Shown here: one piece after another, positions 34,723 through 50,297 of the stretch
How the letters are laid out: each line of letters begins with the position of its first letter
Position numbering within the stretch: position 1 is the stretch's first letter
From: an uncultured Oscillospiraceae bacterium
Lineage (GTDB): Bacteria; Bacillota; Clostridia; Oscillospirales; Oscillospiraceae
Length of the DNA stretch: 59,425 nt
Direction of reading: 5' to 3'
Assembly: GCA_944387285.1 (NCBI GenBank)
Contig: CALXEH010000006.1
Span: forward strand, 1-59,425
The notes under the pieces: generated by a model
Seen by the model: only the letters and a program-made list of their open reading frames with translations
The model's database searches: none
Told to the model about the DNA's origin: nothing
Position numbers and translations under genes: made by a program

Positions 34723-36048
34723 ATGGGTGTGACCAATTCCAACAAGACTGCGGACGCCGCGGCGATATGCTGCGGCGATTCCTTCAACGTGACCCTCGCC
34801 CTCACCGCCGCGCCGGATATCGTCACGAATCCGACCGACATCGTGCTGGCGCTCGACCGCTCGGGCAGTATGAGCGGCACGCCGCTCGCGGACATGAAGG
34901 CCGGGGCCAAAACGTTTATTGACATCATCTCCGAATCCACGGGCGGCTCCGGCTCGGGCGAGATAGGCTCGGGCAGCCGCATGGCCATAGTCAGCTTTGC
35001 CGCCACCGCCAGGGCCGATACCCAGCTCGTCACCTCGACCTCAGAGCTGAAGGCCGCTGTGGACGCCCTCGCCGCCGGCGGCGGCACCAACCACGGCGAG
35101 GCCTTTGAAAAGGCCCAGGGCCTCTTCGAGCCCTCCTCGCTGAACGCCCGGGTCATCGTCATGTTCACCGACGGCGTGACCACCTCGGGCCCGGCTCCGG
35201 CGCCCATCGCCGCCGCGGCCAGGGCCGCAGGCACCACGATCTACTGCATAGGCCTCATCGGCAGCGACGGGCTCAATGTCGCCGCCCTGAACAACTGGGC
35301 CACGGACCCGGACTATTCCCATGTGGCCATCACGCCCGACGCCGCCGACCTGGAGGCGCTCTTTGCCGAGCTCGCCGCCAACATCTCCAAGCCCGGCGCC
35401 ACGGATGTGCTCATCAAGGAAAAGCTCGCGGCGGATTTCGAGCTCGTGGACGTAGAACCGCCGGCTGTCGGCTCCGCCATCATCACCGGCCCGCGCAGCC
35501 TGCGCTGGAGCATCGGCTCCCTCGGCACCACCTCCAGCGAGAGCGCAGCCCTGCACTTCCTCGCCCGGCACACGGGGCATACGTCGGGCAGCGTCAAGGT
35601 CAACGAGTCCATCGACTACTCGGACGCCGAGGGCAACGAGGTACACTTCCCCGAGCCCGAGGTATATGTCGACTGCGGCGAGACGGTGCATCCCGAGCCC
35701 TGCCCCGAGCCGATCGAGCTCTGCCTCGCCGGCTGCGAAGAGGTGCAGGAGCTGGAACTCGGCGAACTCGGCGTGGCCTCGCCCGGGCGTATAGTTGAGC
35801 TCAACCTCTGCCTCAAGGCGGTCTGCCCGCACAAGCGCGTGGCGCTGGCCGTGCAGCTCTCTGACGGCTTCGAGGGCGGCTTCAGCTCGCTCAAGACCTA
35901 CACCATCCCCGCGCACTGCGGCCGCTGCTGCCGGGACGTCAGGGTGGAAGGCATCCTCTTTGCCGTGCCTGACAGCGCTCCCCACTGTCAAAAACGCAAG
36001 ATGTACGTCAGGCTCCTTGCCAACTATATGGACAGCTCGGAGCTGTGA
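34723..36048 (+). CDS. von Willebrand A-domain protein, cysteine-rich C-terminus
   Basis: 441 residues, no signal peptide. A vWA domain (about 25-220) has the metal-ion site DRSGSMSG, a Thr in GGGTNHGE and the Asp in FTDGVT, so it should bind a divalent cation and a protein partner. A beta-rich DUF11-like segment follows (ALHFLARHTGHTSGSVKV). The last 120 residues carry many Cys pairs (CCRDVRVEG, CPHKR). I know similar proteins only as uncharacterised in Clostridia. It follows pyrG by 62 bases without a terminator, but its ribosome site may be masked. A convergent terminator follows. Confidence 0.75.
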   Translation: MGVTNSNKTADAAAICCGDSFNVTLALTAAPDIVTNPTDIVLALDRSGSMSGTPLADMKAGAKTFIDIISESTGGSGSGEIGSGSRMAIVSFAATARADTQLVTSTSELKAAVDALAAGGGTNHGEAFEKAQGLFEPSSLNARVIVMFTDGVTTSGPAPAPIAAAARAAGTTIYCIGLIGSDGLNVAALNNWATDPDYSHVAITPDAADLEALFAELAANISKPGATDVLIKEKLAADFELVDVEPPAVGSAIITGPRSLRWSIGSLGTTSSESAALHFLARHTGHTSGSVKVNESIDYSDAEGNEVHFPEPEVYVDCGETVHPEPCPEPIELCLAGCEEVQELELGELGVASPGRIVELNLCLKAVCPHKRVALAVQLSDGFEGGFSSLKTYTIPAHCGRCCRDVRVEGILFAVPDSAPHCQKRKMYVRLLANYMDSSEL

Positions 36049-36052
36049 AAAA

Positions 36053-36094
36053 AACCGCGGACGGCGCTCTGCCTGTCCGCGGTTCTTATTTTTC
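36053..36094. terminator. Bidirectional terminator between convergent genes
   Basis: AACCGCGGAC (36053-36062) / GTCCGCGGTT (36075-36084), a perfect 10-bp stem, followed by CTTATTTTT on the plus strand and preceded by A7 for the minus strand. It serves both the vWA gene and the radical SAM operon. Confidence 0.85.
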
Positions 36095-36100
36095 CGGCCT

Positions 36101-36835
36101 TCAGCCCTCGGGGCTGTAAAAGGGACAGCGGCCGCACAGGCATTCCCGGTTTTTGGCCTTGTAGCCGCACTCCGGCCTCGAGGCCGGCATGCTTATGCCG
36201 TATTCCCGGCCCAGCCAGCCGGCGGCTGTCTCTATGGCCAGGCGGCCTGTGCGCTTGCAGCAGCGCGGGCCGCCCACGGCGCTTATCGCGGCCAGGCACT
36301 CCGCCGTCAGGCTCTGGGGCCGGGCCCAGACCTCGCCCGCAAGCGGGGTGGACTCGCAAAGTATGCTCGCGCAGATGCCCGCGCCTATCGCCGCGCCGCA
36401 GGCACCCAAAAAGCCGCAGGCCCCGCCCGGCACCTTCCGGCCGCGCTTCCAGGCCTCGCCCAGGCAGGCCGCAAGGTCCTCCACCGGGCCGCCGCAGTTC
36501 CGGAAGGCCGTCAGCAGCACGCAGGGGACGATGCTGTGGTGCTCCGGCCCGTGCATGTGTACGCCCGGCAGCCGGCAGGCCTCGAGATAGAGCCGCACCG
36601 CGTCCCTTTCATCGCTGTCCTGCAGGAAGGCCAGCACCGCCGCGCCGCCGCCGGCGTGGCAGTCGTCGCAGACGAAGTGGCCCGCCTCGCAGGCCGCGTC
36701 CGAGGGCTTCAGCCTGTGGCAGATGCAGCATTCGCGCAGCACAGTCTCGGTCGAGTAGACCAGCGGCCTGCCGCAGATCATGCAGTTCTGCTCCTTTCCG
36801 CCGGGCCCGCCGCAGCAGCAGCTTTGGTTTTCCAT
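36101..36835 (-). CDS. DUF5714-like cysteine-rich protein
   Basis: 244 residues from the ATG at 36835; longer frames run over the upstream gene. Cys motifs in order: CCCGG, CMICGRPL, CCICHRL, HFVCDDCHAGG, then MHGPEHHSIVPCVLLTAFR, KVPGGACGFLGACGAAIGAG and GGPRCCKR. This pattern matches DUF5714 proteins of anaerobes and methanogens. The GACGAAIG/GGPRCCKR portion resembles C_GCAxxG_C_C redox proteins, so metal or Fe-S binding is likely. Last gene of the nine-gene cluster, ending at a strong terminator. Function unknown; probably an electron carrier or cluster-bearing subunit for the radical SAM steps. Confidence 0.75.
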   Translation of the reverse strand: MENQSCCCGGPGGKEQNCMICGRPLVYSTETVLRECCICHRLKPSDAACEAGHFVCDDCHAGGGAAVLAFLQDSDERDAVRLYLEACRLPGVHMHGPEHHSIVPCVLLTAFRNCGGPVEDLAACLGEAWKRGRKVPGGACGFLGACGAAIGAGICASILCESTPLAGEVWARPQSLTAECLAAISAVGGPRCCKRTGRLAIETAAGWLGREYGISMPASRPECGYKAKNRECLCGRCPFYSPEG

Positions 36836-36849
36836 CCGCCCGCCTCCCC

Positions 36850-37053
36850 TCAGCAGCCCGCCGCGGCGTTCAGGGCCTCGATGAAGCCCTCCGGCTCGCG
36901 GCCGAGGCTCCGCGCCAGCTCGCCCAGGCTCAGGCCCTCGTTTTCCTCGTTCACGCAGCACAGCCCCTGCGAGAGCAGCGCGGGATATATCTGCGGATAG
37001 AGCTCCAGCGCCGAGCCGAGCGCCATGTCCGCGTCCACGCCCATCCTTTTCAT
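36850..37053 (-). CDS. DUF1858-like small protein
   Basis: 67 residues: ADMALGSALELYPQIYPALLSQGLCC followed by LSLGELARSLGREPEGFIEALN. This is the DUF1858/ScdA N-domain pattern, a small helical fold often beside redox or hybrid-cluster proteins, although the usual C-x-G-C is here GLCCVNEENEG. It lies 12 bases after the radical SAM gene and 14 before the DUF5714 gene. Possibly a redox sensor or accessory protein. Confidence 0.7.
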   Translation of the reverse strand: MKRMGVDADMALGSALELYPQIYPALLSQGLCCVNEENEGLSLGELARSLGREPEGFIEALNAAAGC

Positions 37054-37065
37054 CGCCTTACCTCC

Positions 37066-38385
37066 TCAGTTTTCATACAGCCTGCCTCCGCGCTCGTCCG
37101 TGAGATGGAAGGCGCAGAAGGGCACCAGCCGGCAGTCCGCCGTCACTACATGCACGCAGCAGCCGCGCAGCCGCCCCAGGTCCAGGTTCCACACGTCCTG
37201 GAAGCCCATGCCCGAAATGCAGAACGAGTGCGTCAGCGTGCGCAGGGCAAAGCGGCCCAGGGCCGTGTCCGCCTGCCCGCCGGGCTGATAGCGCCAGCGC
37301 TTCTGCGTGTACTTGTTCGTCTTCTCCACAAAATCCGTCCGCTCCGTGTCGCCATCGTTCTGCGAGCGCTCCGACAGCGCGGCCAGCCTGCCGCCCGCGT
37401 CCAGGAAATATGTGCTCGAGAAGTCGCAGTGCGGGTCAAACTGCTTCCTCGGCACAAAGTGCTCCAACCTGAGCTCCCCCGGGCACTGCTCGCACAGGGC
37501 GTGGATGACGTCGCACAGGCCGCAGCGCTCCTCGTCCGCCGGGGCCCCACCCGGGAAGCGCCCGAAGCAGCTCATGGGCTGGAAGTGGACGCCCTTCACG
37601 AAGGGGATGTGCGCCTTGCCGAAGCGGACGATCTCGCCCAGGCTGTCCAGGTTCACGCCCGGCACCACCACGGGCACGAGCAGCACGCCCAGCCCGGCGG
37701 CCTCGCAGCGGGCTATGGCCTTCAGCTTGAGCTCCAGCAGGTCGCGGCCGCGCAGCCTCCGGTACACGGCGTCGTCCAGGCCGTCAAATTGCAGGTAGAC
37801 CAGGTCCAGCCCCGCCGCCTTCAGCTGCGCGGCGTAGCCAGGCTCGGCGGCCAGCCTCAGCCCGTTCGTATTCAGCTGCAGGTGCACCGCGCCCATGCGC
37901 TTGCCCAGGCGTATGATATCGGGCAGGTCCTCCCTCATCGTCGGCTCGCCGCCCGAGAGCTGTATGCTGCAAAAGCGGTTCGAGGCGAGCGCGGCGGCGT
38001 ACATGCGCTCGAGCTGGGCGGGCCCGGGCTCGAAACGCCGCGAGTTGGCGTCCGCAAAGCAGACCCTGCAGTCCAGATCGCAGCGATAGGTCAGCTCTAT
38101 GACCGCCGTGCAGGTGCCGCTCCTGTGCGCGTCGCACAGACCGCAGCTGAAAGGGCAGCCGGCCTCGTCCGGCGGACGGCCCCTGTCCTTTGCAGGGGCG
38201 TGGACGCCCTGGCGCAGCCAGCTCTCGTACATGTCCGCATCCCGCCAAAAGAGCGTGCTGAAGCCGCCGTGCTCGGGACAGGCCTTGGTAAAATAGGCCC
38301 TGCCGTCCCGGCGCTCATACCGCGCCGGTATCCTGCGCAGGCAAACCGGGCAGAGGCTCTCCGTCTCGTGCAGTATGACGTTCAC
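37066..38385 (-). CDS. Radical SAM enzyme of the Tes/TrsS type (paralogue 1)
   Basis: 439 residues, GTG start overlapping the preceding CoA ligase stop by 4 bases. An N-terminal zinc-finger-like part (Cys12, Cys15, Cys36 in CPEHG) is followed by CPFSCGLC (77-84) and Cys92, then the 4Fe-4S radical SAM motif CDLDCRVC (Cys102/106/109), QLSGGEPTMRED and LQLNTNGLRL. The C-terminal region has GMGFQDVWNLDLGRLRGCC and FCAFHL. The layout matches the family containing archaeal tetraether lipid synthase and the NCBI-named TrsS (from memory; some of those are selenoproteins). It should make a 5'-deoxyadenosyl radical and, through auxiliary clusters, form a C-C or C-S bond. Substrate unknown. Confidence 0.8.
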   Translation of the reverse strand: MNVILHETESLCPVCLRRIPARYERRDGRAYFTKACPEHGGFSTLFWRDADMYESWLRQGVHAPAKDRGRPPDEAGCPFSCGLCDAHRSGTCTAVIELTYRCDLDCRVCFADANSRRFEPGPAQLERMYAAALASNRFCSIQLSGGEPTMREDLPDIIRLGKRMGAVHLQLNTNGLRLAAEPGYAAQLKAAGLDLVYLQFDGLDDAVYRRLRGRDLLELKLKAIARCEAAGLGVLLVPVVVPGVNLDSLGEIVRFGKAHIPFVKGVHFQPMSCFGRFPGGAPADEERCGLCDVIHALCEQCPGELRLEHFVPRKQFDPHCDFSSTYFLDAGGRLAALSERSQNDGDTERTDFVEKTNKYTQKRWRYQPGGQADTALGRFALRTLTHSFCISGMGFQDVWNLDLGRLRGCCVHVVTADCRLVPFCAFHLTDERGGRLYEN

Positions 38386-39713
38386 GGCGCACCCCTTTCC
38401 ACGATACGCTTTTTCTCATAGCAAAACTCCCTAAGCGCGCCGCAGGGCAGGAGCTTAAGCCCTATTTCGGGCGCGCCCTCCATGCAGGGCAGGGACATGA
38501 GCCGGGACTTGAGCCCCTCTGCATCAAAGCAGGCAGGTTCCAGCACCTCGAGCTCAAAGCCCAGCCGGCCGCCTTCCAGGAAGATGCGGTAGTCCAGCAG
38601 GCCCTCCGCCGCGAAGAGCGTCTCGTCAAAGAGCGCCGGCCAGACGCTGCGGCCCCTGTACTCCGCCGCGCCCTCCTTCCGCCTTCGGATATGGCCCAGG
38701 CAGCGCAGGTGGCTGCCGCACACGCTCGGCGTCATCGCCGCTATGTCCCCGGTGCGGTAGCGGATGAGCGGCATGCAGTCGCGCGCGATGTTCGTGAGCA
38801 CCACCTCGCCCTCCTGCCCATCCGGCAGCGGGGCGCCGGTCTCGGGGTCCACGATCTCCAGGATGTGGTCCAGCTCGTCGTAGTGGTAGCCCGGGCACCG
38901 GCCGCAGTCCACGGCCAGGCCCCAGCCGCTCTCCGTCAGGCCGTAGTGCGTGGAGACGCGGCAGCCCCAGGCCCGGCCCAGGTACTCAGCCATGCTGCCG
39001 GGTATGTTCGACATCGTTGCAAATATGCACTTCATCCCCAGCGCGCGCAGGTCGGCGCGGCGCTCGAGTATGCGGCTGGCCCGGAAAATGGTCACGGCGT
39101 CGCCGAACCAGACGTTCACCCCATGCTCCACGCTCACTCGCAGCAGCTCCTTCGCGCTCTCGCGCAGGTCGGCCGTCCAGGCCCTCATGCCGAAATCCTC
39201 AAGGCTCCGCGCCAGCAGGCCGCCTATGCCCCGGCCCTGCGTATTCGGCAGGAGCACCAGCACCCGCGCCTCGTCCCGGCCCGCGACCGTATTCATACCG
39301 CGCGGCAGAAATTCCAGTATCTTCTGTATATCCACCGCGGAAAAGAAGATGCGCTTCTTCATGCCGGTCGAGCCGGAGCTGTAGAAGGTGACGGGCTTTT
39401 CCACCTCGCCCTGCGAGCAGCACATCAGGCCGTATCCCGCGCCGGCAAGGTCCTCCGGCCGGGTGAAGGGCAGCTTCGCTATGTCCGCGAGGCTTGTCAG
39501 CTGCTCTTCCGTCACGCCCGCCCCGCCCAGCAGGCGCCGGTAAAAGGGGCTCATTTCCCGCACGCGGCGCACTGTCCGGCGCAGCTGCCAGAGCCGGTAG
39601 GCGTCAAACGCCGCGTCGTCCAGCGGCCGCGGCCTCGGGCCGGGATATTCCGCGTCCCGCGCCATCCTCGCCTCGCACAGGCTGTAGAGCCCCTCCTGCA
39701 GGCTCACGCACAT
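38382..39713 (-). CDS. AMP-forming CoA ligase, phenylacetate-CoA ligase-like
   Basis: 443 residues from the ATG at 39713 (AGGGGG upstream); longer frames enter the upstream gene. AMP-binding motifs: YSSGSTGMKKRIFF, THYGLTESGWGLAVDC, LIRYRTGDIA and a C-terminal EKKRIVERG with the likely catalytic Lys. This ANL family activates carboxylic acids to acyl-AMP and then acyl-CoA (or another thiol). VDCGRCPGYHY is typical of the ligase seen in related anaerobe clusters (DVU_1553 type, from memory). Encoded between two radical SAM enzymes, it presumably activates their substrate or product as a thioester. Confidence 0.8.
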   Translation of the reverse strand: MCVSLQEGLYSLCEARMARDAEYPGPRPRPLDDAAFDAYRLWQLRRTVRRVREMSPFYRRLLGGAGVTEEQLTSLADIAKLPFTRPEDLAGAGYGLMCCSQGEVEKPVTFYSSGSTGMKKRIFFSAVDIQKILEFLPRGMNTVAGRDEARVLVLLPNTQGRGIGGLLARSLEDFGMRAWTADLRESAKELLRVSVEHGVNVWFGDAVTIFRASRILERRADLRALGMKCIFATMSNIPGSMAEYLGRAWGCRVSTHYGLTESGWGLAVDCGRCPGYHYDELDHILEIVDPETGAPLPDGQEGEVVLTNIARDCMPLIRYRTGDIAAMTPSVCGSHLRCLGHIRRRKEGAAEYRGRSVWPALFDETLFAAEGLLDYRIFLEGGRLGFELEVLEPACFDAEGLKSRLMSLPCMEGAPEIGLKLLPCGALREFCYEKKRIVERGAP

Positions 39714-39724
39714 GCGCCCACCCC

Positions 39725-40984
39725 CTAATCTATGCCCGGCAGCAGCCTGTCCCCGCCGCTGGAGCTCAGGTACTTCGCGCACAGCGGTATGCCGGCGCCG
39801 TCCTCGCCGATTATCTGTATCGAGCAGCGCCCAAGGCGCAGCAGGTCGATGTTCCAGGCGTCCTGGAAGGCCATGCCGCCCACCGTCAGCAGCGGGGACT
39901 TCGAGGGCAGCCAACTGCGCCTGAGCGTGGCGCGCAGGCGCTCCACGCCCGGCTCCGGCCGCGTATCCGGCCCCGTCAGCGCGCACAGGCGGCCCCGGCG
40001 GTCGAGCATATAGCAGGCGTTGAAGGAGCACTGGGGATGCTCGTAGTGCCCGGGTGAAAAGTCCCGCTCCGAGATGTCCGGGTGCTGCCCGGTCAGGCGG
40101 CGGATGAGGCCCGGTATCGTTATGCGCCGGGCCTGCGCGCCCGCGGGATAGATGCCGAACCAGCTCGCCGGCTGGAAATACACGCCCCTGACCCCGGGCA
40201 TATGCCTGCGTGCATAGTCCACCACGGCGCCCAGCTCCCCTTCGTTCCCGCCGGGCAGGACGCAGCAGGCCAGCACCACCGCCAGGCCCGCCGCAATGCT
40301 GTTTTCCACGGCGCGCTGCTTCGCCTCCAGCAGCGGCCGGCCGTACTTGGCCAGGTACGGCCCCTCGCTCAGGCCGTCAAAGCCCAGGTAGACGGTCGTG
40401 ACGCCGCTCTCCCTGAGCCTTGCGCAGAGCTCCGGGCTCTCCGCCAGCCTCAGCCCGTTCGTATTGAGCTGGATGAAGTCGAAGCCCAGCCCGCTGGCCA
40501 GGGCGGCCAGCTCGCAGATATCCCGCCTTTCCGTCGGCTCGCCGCCGCACAGCTCCAGCAGCGCGCCCTCACCCGCCCGCTGCCTGAAGGCGCGCAGGCG
40601 TTCCGCGCACTCGTCCAGGCCCGGCTGCCTGGGCGCTTCGCCGCGCCGGCGTGTAAAGCAGACGGGGCAGTCCAGGCCGCAGGCGTTCGTCGTCATCAGC
40701 GCCGCGCTTGCGGGCTGCCGGGCCGCGCGGGCGTCAAAGCTGCCCGGCAGGGCCTCCGCCTCCGCCTCGCTGGCCGGCAGCTGTCCGGGCTCCAGCCCGC
40801 CGCGTCGGAGCCAGGCCAGGTAGGCCTCGCTCGTGTCCTCCCAGACCAGGCAGCGGAAGCTGCCGTGCTCCGGGCAGCCCTTTTCCATATACACCGCCCC
40901 GCCGTCCTCCAGCAGCGCCGCCGGGACGGCGCGCAGGCAGCGCGGGCAGACGCTTTTCGTGTGATACAGCAGCCGGCCTGGCAT
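39725..40984 (-). CDS. Radical SAM enzyme of the Tes/TrsS type (paralogue 2)
   Basis: 419 residues. Its architecture parallels the enzyme at 37.1 kb: N-terminal Cys13, Cys16 and Cys37 in CPEHG, the radical SAM motif CGLDCPVC (Cys102/106/109), LELCGGEPTERRD, FIQLNTNGLRL, YFQPASWFG and C-terminal GMAFQDAWNIDLLRLGRCS. It lacks the CPFSCGLC motif present at residues 77-84 of paralogue 1; that stretch is Ala/Glu-rich here. It has therefore probably lost one auxiliary Fe-S cluster and may act on a different step or form a heterodimer. It lies 17 bases after lpd and 11 before the CoA ligase. Confidence 0.8.
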   Translation of the reverse strand: MPGRLLYHTKSVCPRCLRAVPAALLEDGGAVYMEKGCPEHGSFRCLVWEDTSEAYLAWLRRGGLEPGQLPASEAEAEALPGSFDARAARQPASAALMTTNACGLDCPVCFTRRRGEAPRQPGLDECAERLRAFRQRAGEGALLELCGGEPTERRDICELAALASGLGFDFIQLNTNGLRLAESPELCARLRESGVTTVYLGFDGLSEGPYLAKYGRPLLEAKQRAVENSIAAGLAVVLACCVLPGGNEGELGAVVDYARRHMPGVRGVYFQPASWFGIYPAGAQARRITIPGLIRRLTGQHPDISERDFSPGHYEHPQCSFNACYMLDRRGRLCALTGPDTRPEPGVERLRATLRRSWLPSKSPLLTVGGMAFQDAWNIDLLRLGRCSIQIIGEDGAGIPLCAKYLSSSGGDRLLPGID

Positions 40985-41001
40985 CTCAGCACCCCGCTGC
41001 C

Positions 41002-42414
41002 TCAGCCCTTGTCAAAGGACAGCCCTACGGCCCGCTTGCAGGCCTCGAGTATGAGCTCGCTCAGGGTCGGGTGGGGATGGACGCAGTTATACAGCTGCTC
41101 GAGCGTCAGCGAGTTCCCCACGGCCGCCGCCAGCTCGGCTATGAGCCCGCAGGCGCCCTCGCCGAAGATCTGCGCGCCGATGAGGACGTGGTCCGAGGCC
41201 CGGGCCACGACCTTTATGAGCCCCTCCGTCCTGCCCTCGGCTATGGCCCGCTCGTTCGAGGAATAGGGCAGGCTGCCGCACAGCGTGCCTATGCCGCGCT
41301 CTGCCGCCTGCGAGGCCGTGAGCCCCAGCCAGGCCAGCTCGGGCCGCATGAACACCGTGGACGGTATGCTGCCGTAATCCATGGCGCAGGCCCGGCCCGC
41401 TATCGTCTCCGCGATAACCAGCCCCTGCCGCTGCGCCTTGCCCGACAGCTGCGGGCCGGCGGTTATGTCCCCGGCTGCAAAGATGTTCGGCACCGTGCTG
41501 CGCAGCTGCGCGTCCGTCACCACCCGGCCGTCCTCCGTCAGCCGCACCCCGGCCTGCTCCAGGCCCAGGCCCTCGGTATTGGGCCTGCGTCCCGCCGCCG
41601 CGAGCACCGCCTCCGAAACCAGCTCCTGCCCGTCTTCAAGGCGGGTCCTCACCCGGCCGTCCTCCAGCCGCTCGACGGCCAGCACGCCCGAGCCGCATTT
41701 GACGCACACCCCGCGCTTTTCCAGCGAGGCGCGCAGGGCCGCGCTGATCTCGGGCTCTTCCAGCTCAGGGACGAGCGCCGGCCGCTGCTCCACCACGGTC
41801 ACGGCCGCGCCGAAGGCGTTGTAGATGTGCGCGTACTCGAGGCCCGCGGCGCCCGAGCCGATCACGACCACGCTGCCGGGCAGGGGCCGCGAGAAGTCCA
41901 TGGCCTCGTCCGTCGTGAATATCTTCTCCCCGTCCGCGTTGAAGGCCGCAGGCACGTCCGGCTCGGAGCCCGTGGCCAGGACTATGTGCCCCGCAGTGAG
42001 CCGGCGCTTTTCACGGCCGTTGTCCACCTCGAGGCTGTGCGCATCCAGCAGCCGGGCCCGGCCCTTTACCACGTCGATGCCCCGGCTCTTCTTCCACAGG
42101 AAGGCCTCGAGCCCGAAGCCCAGATTGTTTACCACCGTGTTCTTGCGCCGGTTGACCGCCTTGAAGTCCACGGATACGGCGGACATGTCCAGCTCGATGC
42201 CGTAGGCCCCGGCGCCCTTTATGGCGGCGTAGAGGTCCGCGGAAGCCAAAAGCGCCTTGGTCGGTATGCAGCCGCGGTTCACGCAGGTGCCGCCCGAACC
42301 GTTTCTCGCCCGCGCCTCCACTATCGCCGCCTTCAGGCCCCGGTCGGCACAGCGCATGGCGCAGGCCGAGCCGCCCGGTCCGCCGCCTATGCAGATGACG
42401 TCATAGTCGTACAT
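41002..42414 (-). CDS. lpdA: Dihydrolipoyl dehydrogenase-type flavoprotein
   Basis: 470 residues from the ATG at 42414. FAD site GGGPGGSACAM, redox-active disulfide GGTCVNRGCIPTK, NAD site VIGSGAAGLEYAHIY, FAD site NIFAAGDI and the C-terminal His-Glu pair HPHPTLSE, all intact. It normally reoxidises dihydrolipoyl groups with NAD+. No E2 or lipoyl protein gene is nearby; inside this cluster it more likely exchanges electrons with a dithiol or with the small CxxC protein. It is 13 bases after the dehydratase-like gene. Confidence 0.9.
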   Translation of the reverse strand: MYDYDVICIGGGPGGSACAMRCADRGLKAAIVEARARNGSGGTCVNRGCIPTKALLASADLYAAIKGAGAYGIELDMSAVSVDFKAVNRRKNTVVNNLGFGLEAFLWKKSRGIDVVKGRARLLDAHSLEVDNGREKRRLTAGHIVLATGSEPDVPAAFNADGEKIFTTDEAMDFSRPLPGSVVVIGSGAAGLEYAHIYNAFGAAVTVVEQRPALVPELEEPEISAALRASLEKRGVCVKCGSGVLAVERLEDGRVRTRLEDGQELVSEAVLAAAGRRPNTEGLGLEQAGVRLTEDGRVVTDAQLRSTVPNIFAAGDITAGPQLSGKAQRQGLVIAETIAGRACAMDYGSIPSTVFMRPELAWLGLTASQAAERGIGTLCGSLPYSSNERAIAEGRTEGLIKVVARASDHVLIGAQIFGEGACGLIAELAAAVGNSLTLEQLYNCVHPHPTLSELILEACKRAVGLSFDKG

Positions 42415-42427
42415 GGCCACGCTCCTT

Positions 42428-43690
42428 TCAGCAGATATCCTGGCCTGCGCGGCGCTCGCACCAGAAATCGTAGTCGAGCTCGCGCACGGGCAGGCCGTAT
42501 TCCTCCTCAAGCACGCGCGAGTAAGCCCCGCCCGCGCCGCCCATCGGGCAGGCGAAGCCTCCGCTCAGGCAGGCCCGGCAGCCGGAACGCCGCGCCTCGC
42601 GCGCCGCGGCGCGGCAGAGCTCCTCCGGCGGGCCGGCCAAGCCCATGGCCTTCAGCCAGGCGGCGCTCAGGCCGCCCAGGCCAGTGCCCAGCTGCCTGAA
42701 ACCATACAAAAATGCCGCGCTGCCCAGCAGGTCATATCCCCGCTCGTAAAAGCCGAGCTCGAGCTCCGGCAGGGTCAGCGGCGCGTAAAAGCAGTACAGC
42801 CGCGTCCTGCCCGGCTCGGCCGCAGGGGCGTCCTCCAGCTCGCGGCAGAGCAGCTCCAGGGCCGCCAGGGCGCGCTCCGGCTCGGCAAAGCACATGAGCT
42901 GCGCAGTCTGGGCCAGGGACAGGCCCGTGCCCCTCAAGGGGCGCCTGTCCGGCCTCGCGTTGAGCTCCAGCAGCCGCGATTGCAGCCGCAGCCCGGCGGC
43001 GGCGAGCTTCGAGGCCGCGCGCAGCTCGTCCGGGCCGGGCGCCCTTATGCCCAGCGCCCGCGCCGCCTCTGCGCCGAAGCCCTCAAACCTCGACGCCAGC
43101 CAGGCAAAGTCCCGCCCGGCCTCGCCGTTCAGGCAGAGGTCCAGCACCGCAGCCCGCCCGGGCAAGCCCTCGCAGGCCCGGATGCAGTCGCCGCAGAGCA
43201 GGCCGAACTGCAGCACCAGCTCCGGCGGCTCGAAGGGCGGGCACAGCAGCCGGCGGCGCATGAGATTCAGCCCGCAGCGCGGCCCGGGGCCCTCCTGCCC
43301 GCCCAGGGGCCGCCTCGAGAGCAGCACGGCCCGGAGCAACACCTGCAGCGCCAGCGCGCGGCTGCCGAAGCGCAGCCCGCCTCCGGCCGAAAGCCTCAGG
43401 GCCTGGGCAAACACCGGCGGGGCGGGCACGCTCAATTCGCAGTACCTGCCCTGGCCGGCCGAAAAGGCCTCCAGCGCCTCGCGCACATATTCCGCCAGCA
43501 GGCGGCGCAGGCCCTCGTAATTCAACTCAAAGTGCCGGGGCAGCAGCAGCGCCGCGCGCTCCAGCCCGGCCTCGTCCAGCCCAAAGTACCGCAGCGCCGC
43601 CCTGAGCTCGGGCTCAAGCCCCTCGCAGCCCGGAAGCTGGCCCAGCAGCTGCCGGCAGACATCCGGCCTTCCGCCCTCCCCGGGCCGCAC
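42428..43690 (-). CDS. 2-hydroxyacyl-CoA dehydratase-like protein (tentative)
   Basis: 420 residues, GTG start 3 bases after the preceding stop. The second half resembles HgdB/FldB-type subunits: LTLPELELGFYERGYDLLG, a Cys-containing GCRACLSGGFACPM and VLEEEYGLPVRELDYDF, the place where family members end with a GIPvLxLExD segment. Cysteines that could hold a 4Fe-4S cluster include LLCGDCIRAC. These proteins eliminate water through ketyl radicals after ATP-driven one-electron transfer by an HgdC activator, but no activator gene is present. It is very rich in Ala, Leu, Arg and Gly, so similarity is weakened and the assignment is uncertain. Confidence 0.5.
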   Translation of the reverse strand: MRPGEGGRPDVCRQLLGQLPGCEGLEPELRAALRYFGLDEAGLERAALLLPRHFELNYEGLRRLLAEYVREALEAFSAGQGRYCELSVPAPPVFAQALRLSAGGGLRFGSRALALQVLLRAVLLSRRPLGGQEGPGPRCGLNLMRRRLLCPPFEPPELVLQFGLLCGDCIRACEGLPGRAAVLDLCLNGEAGRDFAWLASRFEGFGAEAARALGIRAPGPDELRAASKLAAAGLRLQSRLLELNARPDRRPLRGTGLSLAQTAQLMCFAEPERALAALELLCRELEDAPAAEPGRTRLYCFYAPLTLPELELGFYERGYDLLGSAAFLYGFRQLGTGLGGLSAAWLKAMGLAGPPEELCRAAAREARRSGCRACLSGGFACPMGGAGGAYSRVLEEEYGLPVRELDYDFWCERRAGQDIC

Positions 43691-43693
43691 AGG

Positions 43694-43885
43694 CTACTTG
43701 CCCTCCAGCATCTCCTCCGCGGAGGAGAGCTGCTCCACGACATAGCTGCCGTCCAGCAGCTCAAAGCCGCAGGACGGGCATCTGTAGCCGCTGGCCTCGG
43801 GCAAGGGGATGTCCTTGTAGAATATCCTGATGTCGTCCGCCTGCTCCGCCCTCACATTGCAGCGGGCGCAATACCAAACGCTCAT
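43694..43885 (-). CDS. Small two-CxxC redox/zinc protein (DVU_1557-like)
   Basis: 63 residues with two CxxC pairs: WYCARCNV and YRCPSCGF, then LDGSYVVEQLSSAEEMLEGK. This matches the small DVU_1557-type redox protein that accompanies TrsS-type radical SAM clusters (recollection, not searched). Rubredoxin-like metal binding is likely. Second gene of the operon, 13 bases after the first. Confidence 0.7.
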   Translation of the reverse strand: MSVWYCARCNVRAEQADDIRIFYKDIPLPEASGYRCPSCGFELLDGSYVVEQLSSAEEMLEGK

Positions 43886-43898
43886 CGCCGTCCTCCCC

Positions 43899-44165
43899 TC
43901 ATTCGTCCGCAGCGAGCTTGACTATGTGGCTGTACACGTCCAGGATCAGCGCCGCGCCGTCCTCAAGGCTGTACTCCACGCAGGCGCTGAAGCTGCCCAG
44001 GCGACGGCGCGCCAGGCAGCGCCGCCCGTCCTCCGAACGCAGCTTATCCCCGCCGCCCTCCGCGTACTCCAGCACGGCGCGGATGTCCTCTTCCCTGACC
44101 CCGCGCTCCTCCATGGCGGCCGCGACGCCCTCGGCATATTTCAAATCGGCGGTTTTGAAATCCAT
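43899..44165 (-). CDS. Small conserved-looking protein, 88 aa, first gene of the radical SAM operon
   Basis: Begins MDFKTADLKYAEGVAAAMEERGV and has a C-terminal beta-rich part ending LILDVYSHIVKLAADE; one or two Cys only. No family named with confidence. AGGAGG lies 7 bases upstream and a near-consensus promoter about 35 bases upstream. Being the promoter-proximal gene of the cluster, it may be a dedicated accessory protein. Confidence 0.65.
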   Translation of the reverse strand: MDFKTADLKYAEGVAAAMEERGVREEDIRAVLEYAEGGGDKLRSEDGRRCLARRRLGSFSACVEYSLEDGAALILDVYSHIVKLAADE

Positions 44166-44196
44166 TCCAGTTCCTCCTCAGGTACAGGCTGTAAAA

Positions 44197-44225
44197 ATTG
44201 TACCAGATATACCCGCGTATTTCAA
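44197..44225 (-). promoter_or_regulatory. Promoter of the nine-gene radical SAM operon
   Basis: Minus strand TTGAAA (44225-44220), 17-base spacer, TACAAT (44202-44197), a good sigma-A-type match ahead of the first gene. No other convincing promoter is seen inside the tightly packed cluster. Confidence 0.7.
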
Positions 44226-45984: not shown

Positions 45985-46013
45985 AGTATAGCACACTTAT
46001 TCAGGCCATGCAA
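45985..46013 (-). promoter_or_regulatory. Promoter of tRNA-Gly
   Basis: Minus strand TTGCAT (46013-46008), 17-base spacer, TATACT (45990-45985), 12 bases before the tRNA. The -35 lies inside the end of the isocitrate dehydrogenase gene. Confidence 0.7.
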
Positions 46014-47008
46014 GACATTTTTCTTATGATCGCATCCGCGAACTCGTCCGTGCCCAGGCTGCCGCCCAGGTCGCGGGTCGTCTCCCGGCCGTCCTTTATG
46101 AGCTCGAGGACGGCTTTCTCTATTCTATCAGCCGCCTCCGTCTCGCCTATGTGGCGCAGGAGCATCACCGCCGACAGGATGAGCGCCGTCGGGTTCGCGT
46201 CGTTCAGGCCCGCGTGCTTCGGCGCGCTGCCGTGCACCGCCTCGAATATCGCGCAGTCCTTGCCTATATTCGCGCTCGGCGCCAGGCCCAGGCCGCCTAC
46301 CAGCCCCGCGCAGAGGTCGGACACGATGTCGCCGTACAAATTGGGCAGCACCATCACGTCAAATGCCTCCGGCTTCTGCACCAGCTGCATGCAGGTCGCG
46401 TCCACGATCTTGTCCTCAAACTCTATCTGCGGGTACTCCGCCGCCACCTGCCGCGCGACTTCCAGGAACAGCCCGTCCGTGCACTTCATGATATTCGCCT
46501 TGTGCACCGCCGTCACCTTTTTCCGCCCGTTCTTCACGGCGTAGTCAAAGGCGTAGCGCACGATGCGCTCCGAGCCCTTGCGCGTGATGAGCTTGATGCT
46601 CTCGGCCGCGTCCGTGCCCACCATGTGCTCTATGCCCGCGTACAGGTCCTCCGTGTTTTCGCGCACGGTGACGATGTCCACATTGTCATAGCGGCCCGGG
46701 ACGCCCGCGAAGGTGCGCGCCGGGCGCACGTTGGCGTAGAGGTCGAACTCCTTGCGCAGGGCCACGTTCACGCTCCGGAAGCCCGTGCCCACCGGCGTCG
46801 TGATGGGGCCCTTCAGCGCCAGGCCGTCCGCCCTCACAGAGTCGATGGTCGCCTGGGGCAGAGGCGTGCCGCAGACCTCCATCTGGGCCGCACCGGCCTC
46901 GGCCACATGCCACTCTATCTTCGCGCCCGAGGCGTCCACTACCTTCCTGGCCGCCGCCGCGACCTCCGGGCCTATGCCGTCGCCCGGGATAAGCGTTACT
47001 GCGCGCAT
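46001..47008 (-). CDS. Isocitrate/isopropylmalate dehydrogenase family, probable isocitrate dehydrogenase
   Basis: 335 residues. Family motifs: [78 protein letters not shown] and [13 protein letters not shown]. The short NAD-type form could act on isocitrate or isopropylmalate; the preceding citrate synthase and aconitase genes, and the NTEDLY-type substrate loop, favour isocitrate, giving 2-oxoglutarate. Two adjacent ATG codons (47011, 47008) follow GGAGG; 47008 has better spacing. Overlaps the aconitase stop. Confidence 0.85.
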
Positions 47009-48945
47009 CATTCTTCCTCCTTCCCCGCCTGCTCGCGGGTGTAATTGAGCAGCCCGCCGGCCAGCAGGATATCCCGCTGCCTCGGCGTTATCGTCATCCT
47101 CACCTTTATCTCGCGCCCGCCGCATTTGAGCACTACTCCCTCGCCCCTCGCGGCGGCGGCGATCTGCCCGTGCACGTTCTCGATGACCACTTCGTCGCCC
47201 TGCGCGAGCGCGGCGTAGTCCGCCTCGTCCTCGAGGCAGAGCGGCAGGATGCCGTTATTTATGAGGTTGGCCCTGTGTATCCGCGCGAAGCCCAGGGCTA
47301 TGACGCCCTTCACGCCCAGGTACAGCGGCGCGAGCGCCGCGTGCTCGCGGCTCGAGCCCTGGCCGTAGTTCTGGCCCGCCACGATGAAGCCTCCGCCCTG
47401 CTCCTGCGCCCGCTTCGGGAACTCCGCATCGCAGGGCGTCAGGCAGAACTCCGACAGGTAGGGCACGTTCGAGCGGTAGGGCAGCAGTTTCGCGTTCGAG
47501 GGCATGATATGGTCTGTCGTGATGTTGTCGCCCAGCTTTATGAGCACCCGGCCCTCTATCGTCTCCGCCGGGGCCTTCGCCTTCGGGAAGGGCTTTATGT
47601 TCGGACCGCGCACGACCTCTACGCTGTCAGGGTCGTCCGAGGGCGCGAGCACCATGCTGTCGTCCACCGCAAAACGCTCCGGCATCGCGGGCTTTTCCAC
47701 CGGCGTCCAGGTCTCGGGGTCGGTCAGCACGCCCGTTATCGCGGACACCGCCGCCGTCTCCGGGCTCACCAGCCACACGCTGGCCGAGGCGGTGCCGCTC
47801 CTGCCGCAGAAGTTGCGGTTGAAGGTGCGCAGGCTCACCGCGTCCGTCGCCGGGGCCTGGCCCATGCCTATGCAGGGCCCGCAGGCGCACTCGAGTATCC
47901 TTGCGCCCGCCGCGACCATCTTCGCCAGCGCCCCGTTCGAGGCCAGCATCGTCAGCACCTGCCTCGAACCCGGCGAGATGACGAGGCTCACGTTCGGCGC
48001 GACGCTGTGCCCGTCGAGTATCTCCGCCACCTTCATCATGTCCGCATACGACGAGTTCGTGCAGCTGCCGATGGCGACCTGGTCTATCTTTATCCCGGCC
48101 TTGTCCGCGACCCGCGCCACGTTGTCCGGGCTGTGCGGCATGGCAGCCAGCGGGTGCAGGGCCGAGAGGTCGATCGTGATCTCCTCGTCGTACTCCGCGT
48201 CGGGGTCGGCTTTCAGCTCTGACCAGTCCGCGAGCCTACCCTGCGCGGCGAAGAACTCGCGCGTCACCTCGTCGCTCGGGAACACCGTGGTCGTCGCGCC
48301 CAGCTCCGCGCCCATGTTCGCTATCGTCGCGCGCTCGGGCACCGAGAGGCCGGCGAGGCCCTCGCCCGTGTACTCCATTATCTTCGCCACGCCGCCCTTG
48401 ACGCTCAGGCGCCGCAGCACCTCGAGGATGACGTCCTTCGCCGTCACCATGGGCTTGAGCTTCCCCACCAGCTCGACCTTGCAGATCTTCGGCATAGCGA
48501 GGTAATAGGCCCCGCCGCCCATGGCGACCGCCACGTCCAGGCCGCCCGCGCCTATGGCGAGCATGCCCGCCGCGCCGCAGGTCGGCGTGTGGCTGTCAGA
48601 GCCCAGCAGGGTCTGGCCCGGCACCGAAAAGCGCTCGAGCTGCACCTGATGGCAGATGCCGTTGCCGGGCCGCGAAAACCAGATGCCGTGCTTCGCCGCC
48701 ACGGTCTGGATGTACTTGTGGTCGTCCGCGTTCTCAAAGCCGGACTGGAGCATGTTGTGGTCCACATAGGCCACCGAGCGCTTCGTCTTCACCTTCCCCG
48801 TACCCATGGCCTCGAGCTGCAGATAGGCCATCGTGCCCGTCGAGTCCTGCGTCAGGGTTTGGTCTATCCGTATCGCTATCTCCCCGCCGGGCGTGAGATC
48901 GCCGGATACCAGGTGGCTCGCTATCAGTTTCTGCGCTGCGTTCAT
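47008..48945 (-). CDS. Aconitate hydratase
   Basis: 645 residues, the compact aconitase form. 4Fe-4S ligands are in [15 protein letters not shown] and [11 protein letters not shown]; substrate motifs include [12 protein letters not shown] and the C-terminal swivel [15 protein letters not shown]. It isomerises citrate to isocitrate. Its start overlaps the citrate synthase stop by 4 bases and its end overlaps the dehydrogenase start: three coupled genes for citrate to 2-oxoglutarate. Confidence 0.92.
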
Positions 48946-50297
48946 GCTTCTTCCGCCTCCATCTGCTTATATACCTGCCAGAGCTCGCCGTCGCCTATGT
49001 TCGTGACGCGCCCGGCCTCGTACTGGTCGTCTACCCAGTTTTTGAGTATGTGTACTATCTCCTCGGTCTTCGCCACGGGCCTGCCCAGCTTCTGCGTCAG
49101 CCAGACCGCTATGCCCGCCGCGCCCGAGTTGCGCGAGATGCCCACCCGCGGCGGGCTTTTCAGTATCTTCCGAGTATCGAAAATGCTGTATATCTCCTCG
49201 TCCTTGAGCAGGCCGTCCGCATGGATGCCCGCCTGCGTCGTGTTGAAGCTCTCACCCACGAAGGGCGTGTTCTCCGGGATGTGGTAGCCCAGCTCGCGCT
49301 CGTAGTAATCCGCAATGTCGCGTATGACTGTCGTATCCATGCCGTCGAGCGTGCCGCGCAGCTGCGCGTACTCGATTACCATGGCCTCGAGCGGGGTGTT
49401 GCCCGTGCGCTCGCCTATGCCCAGCAGCGAGCAGTTCACGCTCGACGCGCCGTAGAGCCAGGCCGTCGCCGAGTTCACCACCGCCTTGTAGAAGTCGTTG
49501 TGCCCGTGCCACTCCAAGAGCTCCGAGGGGAAGCCGCCGTAGTAGCGCAGGCCGTAGACTATGCCCGGCACGCTTCTCGGCATCGACGCGCCGGCATAGG
49601 GCACGCCGTAGCCCATCGTGTCGCAGGCGCGTATCTTTATCGGTATGCCGCTCTCGTTCATGAGCTGGCTTATCTCGTGCGCAAAAGGCACCACGAAACC
49701 GTAAAAGTCCGCGCGCGTGATGTCCTCAAAGTGGCACCTCGGGTAAATGCCCGCGTCCAGCGCGTCCTTTATGACGGCCAAATAGCCGTCCACCGCCTGG
49801 CGGCGCGTCTTCTTCAGCTTCTTGTATATGTGATAGTCCGAGCAGCTGACCAGTATGCCGCACTCGCGCAGGCCCAGGTCGCGCGCGAGCTTGAAATCCT
49901 CACGGCTGGCGCGTATCCAGCCCGTTATCTCCGGGAACTCGTAGCCCAGCTCCTGGCACATGCGCAGGGCCTTCCTGTCCCGCTCGCTGTAGACGAAGAA
50001 TTCCGACTGCCGGATGACGCCCTTCGGCCCGCCCAGCTTGTGCAGCAGCTTGAAGAGCTCCACTATCTGCTCCGGCTCGTAGGGCGCGCGGCTCTGCTGC
50101 CCGTCCCGGAAGGTCGTGTCGGTTATCCAGATCTGCTCCGGCGGGTTCGCCGGGGTCAGGCGGAAGTTGAAGGTGCACTTGGGTATCTCCTCATATGGGA
50201 ACATGTCCCGGTAGAGGTTGCCCGTCTCCCTGTCCTGGAGGCTGTACTTGTACTCGCACTCCATGAGGACGTTGTTTTTGCTGTTCAGCTCTATCAT
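48942..50297 (-). CDS. Re-citrate synthase (homocitrate/isopropylmalate synthase family)
   Basis: 451 residues. The HMGL-like TIM barrel has ITDTTFRDGQQSRAPY, the metal-binding HGHNDFYKAVVNSATAWLYG and SLLGIGERTGNTPLEAM. The length and N-terminal region (LMECEYKYSLQD) match the Re-face citrate synthase of Clostridium kluyveri rather than homocitrate or isopropylmalate synthases, and no leucine regulatory domain is present. It condenses oxaloacetate and acetyl-CoA; the enzyme type is oxygen-sensitive and found in strict anaerobes. First gene of the operon with its own promoter. Confidence 0.88.
   Translation of the reverse strand: MIELNSKNNVLMECEYKYSLQDRETGNLYRDMFPYEEIPKCTFNFRLTPANPPEQIWITDTTFRDGQQSRAPYEPEQIVELFKLLHKLGGPKGVIRQSEFFVYSERDRKALRMCQELGYEFPEITGWIRASREDFKLARDLGLRECGILVSCSDYHIYKKLKKTRRQAVDGYLAVIKDALDAGIYPRCHFEDITRADFYGFVVPFAHEISQLMNESGIPIKIRACDTMGYGVPYAGASMPRSVPGIVYGLRYYGGFPSELLEWHGHNDFYKAVVNSATAWLYGASSVNCSLLGIGERTGNTPLEAMVIEYAQLRGTLDGMDTTVIRDIADYYERELGYHIPENTPFVGESFNTTQAGIHADGLLKDEEIYSIFDTRKILKSPPRVGISRNSGAAGIAVWLTQKLGRPVAKTEEIVHILKNWVDDQYEAGRVTNIGDGELWQVYKQMEAEEA

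Follow-up and report, generated by a model that had tools for sequence, protein, structure and literature searches.

What is made by a nine-gene operon that carries two related radical S-adenosylmethionine (SAM) enzymes in an uncultured Oscillospiraceae bacterium? The operon, with genes called A to I here, lies on contig CALXEH010000006.1 in the window, the whole stretch of 59,425 nucleotides that was analyzed. By sequence, it is a member of the Trs (DVU_155x) system, which has already been named: G scores above the cutoff of the radical SAM family TrsS (NF045646, 518.7 against 490), F scores above that of the DVU_1553 family of AMP-dependent coenzyme A (CoA) ligases (NF045666, 327.1 against 300), and A and B are relatives of Trs parts. 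The sequence-only reading of the window had described two paralogous Tes/TrsS-type enzymes, a CoA ligase and a link to the DVU_155x genes of Desulfovibrio, all of which is borne out by these scores, with E as a sister paralogue below the TrsS cutoff (330.4). It missed that the operon represents a separate type of Trs system and that a cluster of the other type is present in the same genome.

The NCBIfam set for Trs comprises TrsS (NF045646), the families DVU_1551, DVU_1553, DVU_1556 and DVU_1557, and NF045663, NF045664 and NF045668. According to the available part of the review PMC13188914, the source paper of these families is Haft and Tolstoy 2025 (mSystems 10:e0141724); a table in that part lists TrsS and MbdU and gives no function for them. 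In agreement with the earlier statement that no firm product is known, neither an assigned TrsS reaction nor a Trs product was found in the available text of the literature searched, of which Haft and Tolstoy 2025 was not a part. Searches on DVU1551/1553/1555/1556/1557 and on DUF5714 found no paper. DVU1559 appears in one abundance table and in one proteome table under "Ethanol metabolism" in the source portions available.

Two types of Trs operon

A contig scan with G as the query gave 25 loci, to which 28 further stretches from whole genomes were added, and the loci were sorted with a tblastn panel drawn partly from those same loci. Trs systems split into two types, a division that is new here, though Haft and Tolstoy 2025 may already describe the tandem type. 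The 16 loci of type 1 all contain TrsS and the CoA ligase, accompanied by a C-GCAxxG-C-C protein (13 loci), DVU_1557 (10), the dicluster flavoprotein (10), a molybdenum (Mo) aldehyde oxidoreductase (8), a nucleoside triphosphate (NTP) transferase (7) and XdhC (4); counts below 16 are minima, many of those contigs being short. The panel detects E-type and HGD-type proteins in none of the 16. Type 2 is represented by 10 assemblies, with contigs pooled per genome for G391, G392, G396, G829, G831 and G832, so that adjacency across contigs is not implied. G is found in all 10, E, F and D in 9 each, A, B and a DVU_1556-like methyltransferase in 8 each, DUF5714 in 7, an activase and the proteins HGDa and HGDb in 6 each, C in 4 and H in 3. 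Nine of the 10 combine E, F, G and D, more than expected by chance, and tblastn finds the Mo aldehyde oxidoreductase, XdhC, the NTP transferase, the full dicluster protein and the C-GCAxxG-C-C protein in none of these pooled assemblies. The remaining 11 loci of the 25-locus scan are Tes-like and yield no match to F, D, A, B, DUF5714 or HGD-type proteins, several of those contigs being short.

Compared with the usual Trs set, type 2 adds the radical SAM paralogue, D, DUF5714, the proteins C, HGDa and HGDb, and the activase. The window operon shares TrsS and the DVU_1553 ligase with Trs; in addition, B is homologous to DVU_1557, and A to the dicluster protein's C-terminal domain. B scores above the cutoff of DUF7479 (38.6 against 27) and below that of DVU_1557 (23.7 against 60). 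The full-length dicluster flavoprotein NF045663 is missing from the operon; only its 79 C-terminal residues are present, as A (positions 678-756 of 759, E 1.5e-11, 43.1 against a cutoff of 530), and A stands alone in the same way in 8 of the 10 type-2 assemblies. An assignment of A to DUF4258 was rejected, with 14.3 bits lying under the cutoff. The DVU_1556-like methyltransferase, common in type 2, has no counterpart in the window operon. This methyltransferase resembles ArsM among many others, and its cysteines vary by eye between relatives; arsenic methylation was rejected as its role. Beside one type-1 cluster lies a THEP1-like NTPase fused to a UbiE/ArsM-like methyltransferase domain (L045:1203-2408).

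The DUF5714 protein I scores 183.2 against a cutoff of 26.2 for PF18978 and also matches positions 38-268 of 468 of the double selenoprotein MbdU (NF045648), below the cutoff of that family (95.6 against 600). TIGR01909 is weakly matched by one of the type-2 DUF5714 proteins (E 9.8e-4, 19.2 against 47.4). Homology of DUF5714 with the type-1 C-GCAxxG-C-C protein was rejected and a replacement between the two is unsupported, the profile comparison giving a probability of 3. A second DUF5714 protein of Cuneatibacter (L013:14450-15508) has about 100 extra C-terminal residues that look lipoyl/biotinyl-like by eye and find no match in Pfam.

The genome of the window (2.4 Mb, 85.5% complete) carries its type-1 cluster on contig 27 (L034:9198-19500). 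Here, the aldehyde oxidoreductase (1296.7 against 1100), the dicluster flavoprotein (771.4 against 530), TrsS (524.9 against 490) and the ligase (333.4 against 300) exceed their cutoffs, and the DVU_1556-like methyltransferase falls below its own (89.3 against 155). With about 1006 bits, the oxidoreductase is closely related to 1dgj and 1sij, two aldehyde oxidoreductases of Desulfovibrio with solved structures. Counted in type-2 genomes alone, both types are present in 7 of 9 (G000, G391, G392, G396, G829, G831 and G834), the type-1 cluster of G829 consisting of a ligase and a TrsS fragment that reaches the end of its contig; no type-1 TrsS is found in the other two, G830 and G832.

E-type genes are rare and patchy. 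Matches occur in 3 of the 391 genomes from the class and in 1 of 394 from the order, the genome of the window being included in both. Of 119 relatives, 4 match (4 of 13 in the same genus), and two other families, represented by 299 and 199 genomes, yield the seed genome alone. A large protein collection contains 690 relatives of E at E<=1e-60 among 7995 scored. The genes nevertheless occur jointly in several bacterial families, so that the grouping does not fail in the way that the earlier reading had named as a refutation, a lack of co-occurrence elsewhere. A Desulfovibrionaceae row nests in clades that otherwise consist of Bacillota, genomes of the same genus and one record labeled Bacteroidales, which suggests transfer. 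The record labeled uncultured Bacteroidales (L010:3-1522, genome G828) contains a type-2 TrsS grouping with those of Oscillospiraceae, a case of either transfer or a mislabeled or mixed assembly; G and H are the only panel members found there.

Radical SAM enzymes and redox partners

A tree of 40 rows, from which six fragment or remote rows had been removed beforehand, shows four separate clades: type-1 TrsS (14 rows, support 95/93), type-2 TrsS (8 rows, 100/100), E (9 rows, 100/100) and Tes-like proteins (9 rows, 100/99). Type-2 TrsS and E are sister clades (95/92), so that E goes back to a duplication linked to type 2. Two Tes/TrsS-like genes lie on a Planctomycetota contig (L031:2019-7411), separated by shorter radical-SAM-like stretches, and one of the two is very long-branched.

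Among solved structures, Tes/GDGT-MAS (7tol/7tom) comes nearest to both G and E, with the model of E (predicted local distance difference test score 92.9) reaching a TM score of 0.80 to 7tol. As described in the available sections of PMC9433317, Tes contains a rubredoxin-like iron site, an N-terminal [4Fe-4S] cluster (C73, C77, C80 and a histidine), the radical SAM cluster and a C-terminal cluster with the labile ligand Met439; Met439 and Tyr459 are invariant across 1000 archaeal homologues, and the enzyme links a substrate carbon to a cluster sulfur. G has the same domain order, with the motifs for the rubredoxin-like site and for the N-terminal, radical SAM and C-terminal clusters and the labile methionine all present. 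No in-frame stop indicative of selenocysteine is found in G or in the other TrsS of the same genome, and the family includes cysteine forms. The N-cluster motif is found in 8/8 type-2 and 14/14 type-1 TrsS rows, compared to 1/9 E rows, the exception being the deepest E branch, from L013. The methionine and three C-terminal cysteines are invariant in all 38 rows of an alignment (32 of 120 listed E relatives and six others), 33 of these rows being E-type; this alignment was used because the C-terminal-block pattern itself requires the methionine.

G and E belong to clades apart from the Tes-like one and remain below the cutoff of the Tes profile NF045702 (331.5 and 219.1 against 450). The position of Tyr459 is replaced in 20/20 matched TrsS/E rows, with valine in G and isoleucine in E, and keeps its tyrosine in 4/4 matched Tes-like rows (C-terminal-block pattern matched in 8/9 E, 7/8 type-2 TrsS, 5/14 type-1 TrsS and 4/15 Tes-like rows). 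The position aligned with Arg275 of Tes holds arginine or lysine in 20/20 matched TrsS rows and neither in 7/7 matched E rows (Arg-loop pattern matched in 7/9 E, 8/8 type-2 TrsS, 12/14 type-1 TrsS and 2/15 Tes-like rows). Between two blocks aligned with 7tol, G has 69 residues compared to 117 and E has 52 compared to 121, and the lid over the lipid pocket is thus shorter in both than in Tes. From these features, we infer that TrsS and E may keep the radical-capture chemistry of Tes on a nonlipid substrate, with E as a putative partner without the N-cluster path for electrons.

The dehydratase-like protein of the sequence-only reading is C, which has the predicted fold of the BCR/HAD and double-cubane family (BzdNO 8s02, HadBC 3o3m, DCCP 6eno), of the BzdO/HadB kind, yet falls just under the Pfam cutoff of HGD-D (PF06050, 26.6 against 28.4). 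Cys139, Cys166 and Cys300 are conserved in an alignment of seven sequences, which does not imply that they match the BzdO ligands 95/128/380. Fuller type-2 operons resemble the family further through HGDa/HGDb and the activase, the latter with a profile score of 249.1 against 125.4 in L013. In contrast to BzdN, HGDb has G, N, V, D, C and D at the six double-cubane cysteine positions. The loss of five of six cluster ligands, together with a CxxC-x27-C pattern shared by HGDa-type proteins, indicates a metal site that probably differs from known ones, and ordinary class I BCR chemistry by HGDa/HGDb is doubted on account of the missing ligands. One HGDa gene (L037:5582-7036) contains a single in-frame TAA that is missing from its relative in L039, due to an assembly error or a young pseudogene.

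D passes the cutoff of dihydrolipoyl dehydrogenase (TIGR01350, 430.7 against 408.8). Its setting differs from the usual one in that GcvH and lipoate ligase find no match in the genome of the window, at its stated completeness, where the single PF00364 domain lies in a 1275-aa frame and is probably of the biotin type. Neither is matched in G829, which is probably the same as G244 (listed as 100% complete), or in G830. The other six of the nine type-2 genomes have lipoate ligase matches, one of them partial and below the cutoff, and GcvH is present in three of the nine. On this modest evidence, D may serve a thiol inside the Trs system.

Possible functions of the type-2 operon

The reading preferred here, offered tentatively as a possibility still short of probable, is that the type-2 operon converts an organic acid to a CoA thioester, remodels it by radical chemistry and then reduces or dehydrates it in anaerobic catabolism. 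It builds on the observed gene content, the two types and their clades, the cluster motifs and the presence of both types in one genome; each reaction in it is conditional. F would make the acyl-CoA from the organic acid. G, and perhaps also E, would use the 5'-deoxyadenosyl radical to abstract a hydrogen atom; the substrate radical would be captured, as in Tes, by the C-terminal [4Fe-4S] cluster and its labile methionine, so that a C-C or C-S bond is to be expected. Electrons or thiol/disulfide equivalents would be carried by A, B, D and H, and stand-alone A together with D would take the place of the one dicluster flavoprotein found in type 1. C would perform a low-potential step on the CoA ester, in fuller operons with HGDa/HGDb and the ATP-dependent activase.

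The acyl-CoA pathway is read from the score of F above a CoA-ligase cutoff and from the predicted fold of C, shared with enzymes acting on acyl-CoA, and radical bond formation is read from the retained Tes-type motifs and labile methionine. The addition of HGDa/HGDb and the activase in 6 of the 10 type-2 assemblies supports the scheme. A catabolic character is suggested by the neighbors in two genomes. In L013, from Cuneatibacter, the cluster adjoins an acylating-aldehyde-dehydrogenase-like protein, an iron-type alcohol dehydrogenase, a phosphotransbutyrylase-like protein, a butyrate kinase (390.6 against 289.1) and a lactate/oxalate-type carrier. In G396, the neighborhood contains a Sir2-like protein, TauABC-like ABC genes and regulators. 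The rarity and patchiness of E-type genes argue for a specialized pathway rather than a core cofactor.

Several observations weigh against the carboxylate pathway. The window operon has no HGDa/HGDb, activase or methyltransferase, so that C stands alone there; C itself scores under its Pfam cutoff, with three further homologues only. Type-1 operons contain no HGD-type protein, which places the reductive step outside the shared core, and the loss of double-cubane ligands in HGDb means that known BCR chemistry is not transferable. A single genome shows the catabolic flank, and two of the 10 assemblies carry TauABC. The gene set also fits cofactor assembly, the strongest rival.

In the cofactor explanation, which is doubtful but deserves weight, a Trs core of radical SAM enzyme, adenylating ligase, methyltransferase and small cysteine proteins builds an organic or metallo-cofactor for the redox enzyme next to it. 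In type 1 this enzyme would be the Mo aldehyde oxidoreductase, and in type 2 it would be the BCR/HAD-type protein. An identical core beside two unrelated metalloenzymes would be accounted for in this way, as would the NTP transferase and XdhC-type maturation factors added in type-1 loci, the CobW-type GTPase in 2 of the 10 type-2 assemblies and the unusual metal site of HGDa/HGDb. However, a single cofactor serving two unrelated enzymes is hard to picture, 1dgj and 1sij are not known to carry cofactors beyond Mo-cytosine-dinucleotide and [2Fe-2S] clusters, and the carriers, regulators and butyrate kinase near type 2 have a catabolic character. A radical thiolation, in which the ligase presents an acyl group, G and E insert a sulfur from the C-terminal cluster and D cycles the resulting dithiol as a lipoate-like redox carrier, would agree with the carbon-sulfur bond formed in Tes according to the available text of PMC9433317, with the score of D and with the genomes (that of the window, G829 and G830) that match neither GcvH nor lipoate ligase. 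It is nonetheless improbable, as most type-2 genomes do have lipoate ligase matches, the genome of the window is incomplete, the family of D is large, so that D may reduce a disulfide of a protein or of CoA, and no carrier protein has been identified.

The sequence-only reading had left membrane lipid modification and a cofactor as its two options, of which lipid modification has become the less likely. In that option, TrsS and E would join or bridge alkyl chains like Tes, with the ligase activating a fatty acid. Tes/GDGT-MAS is indeed the closest solved structure, the Tes cluster motifs and labile methionine are retained, and a role in branched glycerol dialkyl glycerol tetraethers is proposed for bacterial Tes homologues in the available part of PMC8941075. 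Set against the subcutoff Tes scores, the uniform replacement of Tyr459, the 100/99 split from Tes-like rows, the shortened roof of the lipid pocket and the absence of lipid genes among the recurring partners identified in the neighborhoods, this role appears very improbable.

A bolder reading, judged unlikely, treats type 2 as the Mo-free counterpart of a Mo pathway, with cells keeping both, in analogy to alternative nitrogenases. The shared core of TrsS, CoA ligase and methyltransferase would work with the Mo aldehyde oxidoreductase in type-1 operons; its type-2 partners would be a BCR/HAD-type enzyme that is activated by ATP and has a rewired metal site, and an additional Trs radical enzyme. 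TrsS and E would in that case be members of the Tes family that forge C-C or C-S bonds on CoA-bound metabolites, not on membrane lipids. Tes, the nearest solved relative of TrsS, joins unactivated sp3 carbons, and a second Trs type, in which the radical enzyme is duplicated and simplified and the redox partner differs, offers a comparative handle: the parts common to both types (TrsS, ligase, methyltransferase and small cysteine proteins) should define the shared chemistry, and those that differ should define the redox step. Growth-substrate tests are thinkable in Cuneatibacter sp. NSJ-177 (record name), where the set adjoins butyrate kinase, if the strain is in culture. The substrate of type 2, once found, would reveal a new pathway.

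Operon layout and neighboring genes

The operon structure described earlier is confirmed, with all nine genes on the minus strand from 44165 down to 36101, gaps of 3 to 17 bases and a 4-base overlap of F and G as the only one.

Features of the operon and its borders, in positions of the window
Feature	Positions	Strand	Description	Basis
Promoter-like site	44197..44225	-	TTGAAA-17-TACAAT, upstream of A	consensus scan only
A	43899..44165	-	88 aa, C-terminal domain of type-1 dicluster flavoprotein	NF045663
B	43694..43885	-	63 aa, two CxxC, DUF7479, diverged DVU_1557 relative	profile matches
C	42428..43690	-	420 aa, predicted BCR/HAD (BzdO/HadB) fold	predicted structure
D	41002..42414	-	dihydrolipoyl-dehydrogenase-family protein	TIGR01350
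E	39725..40984	-	radical SAM paralogue of G, in the sister clade to type-2 TrsS; has lost the N-cluster motif	
F	38382..39713	-	DVU_1553 family AMP-dependent CoA ligase	NF045666
G	37066..38385	-	radical SAM protein TrsS with every Tes cluster motif	NF045646
H	36850..37053	-	67 aa, DUF1858-like	under both profile cutoffs
I	36101..36835	-	DUF5714, cysteine-rich N terminus	PF18978
Terminator-like hairpin	36053..36084	listed on +	in the gap from I to the convergent VWA gene	

The earlier reading named a single promoter. One promoter-like site precedes A, with 10 of 12 consensus bases and a preceding TG, in a region that holds three such sites compared to 0.8 in shuffles; a consensus match of this kind is no proof of one single promoter. 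H matches DUF1858 weakly (19.4 against 32.2), and an H-type gene also adjoins TrsS in L010 and in L015/L052. Read on the minus strand, the hairpin consists of a stem followed by TTTTTC. Beyond it, a von Willebrand factor A (VWA) domain protein (34723-36048) converges on the operon. Elsewhere in the window, an HMGL-like protein (48942-50297) lies within the stretch 46001-50297, beside open reading frames that resemble, by eye, aconitase (47008-48945) and isocitrate/isopropylmalate dehydrogenase (46001-47125).

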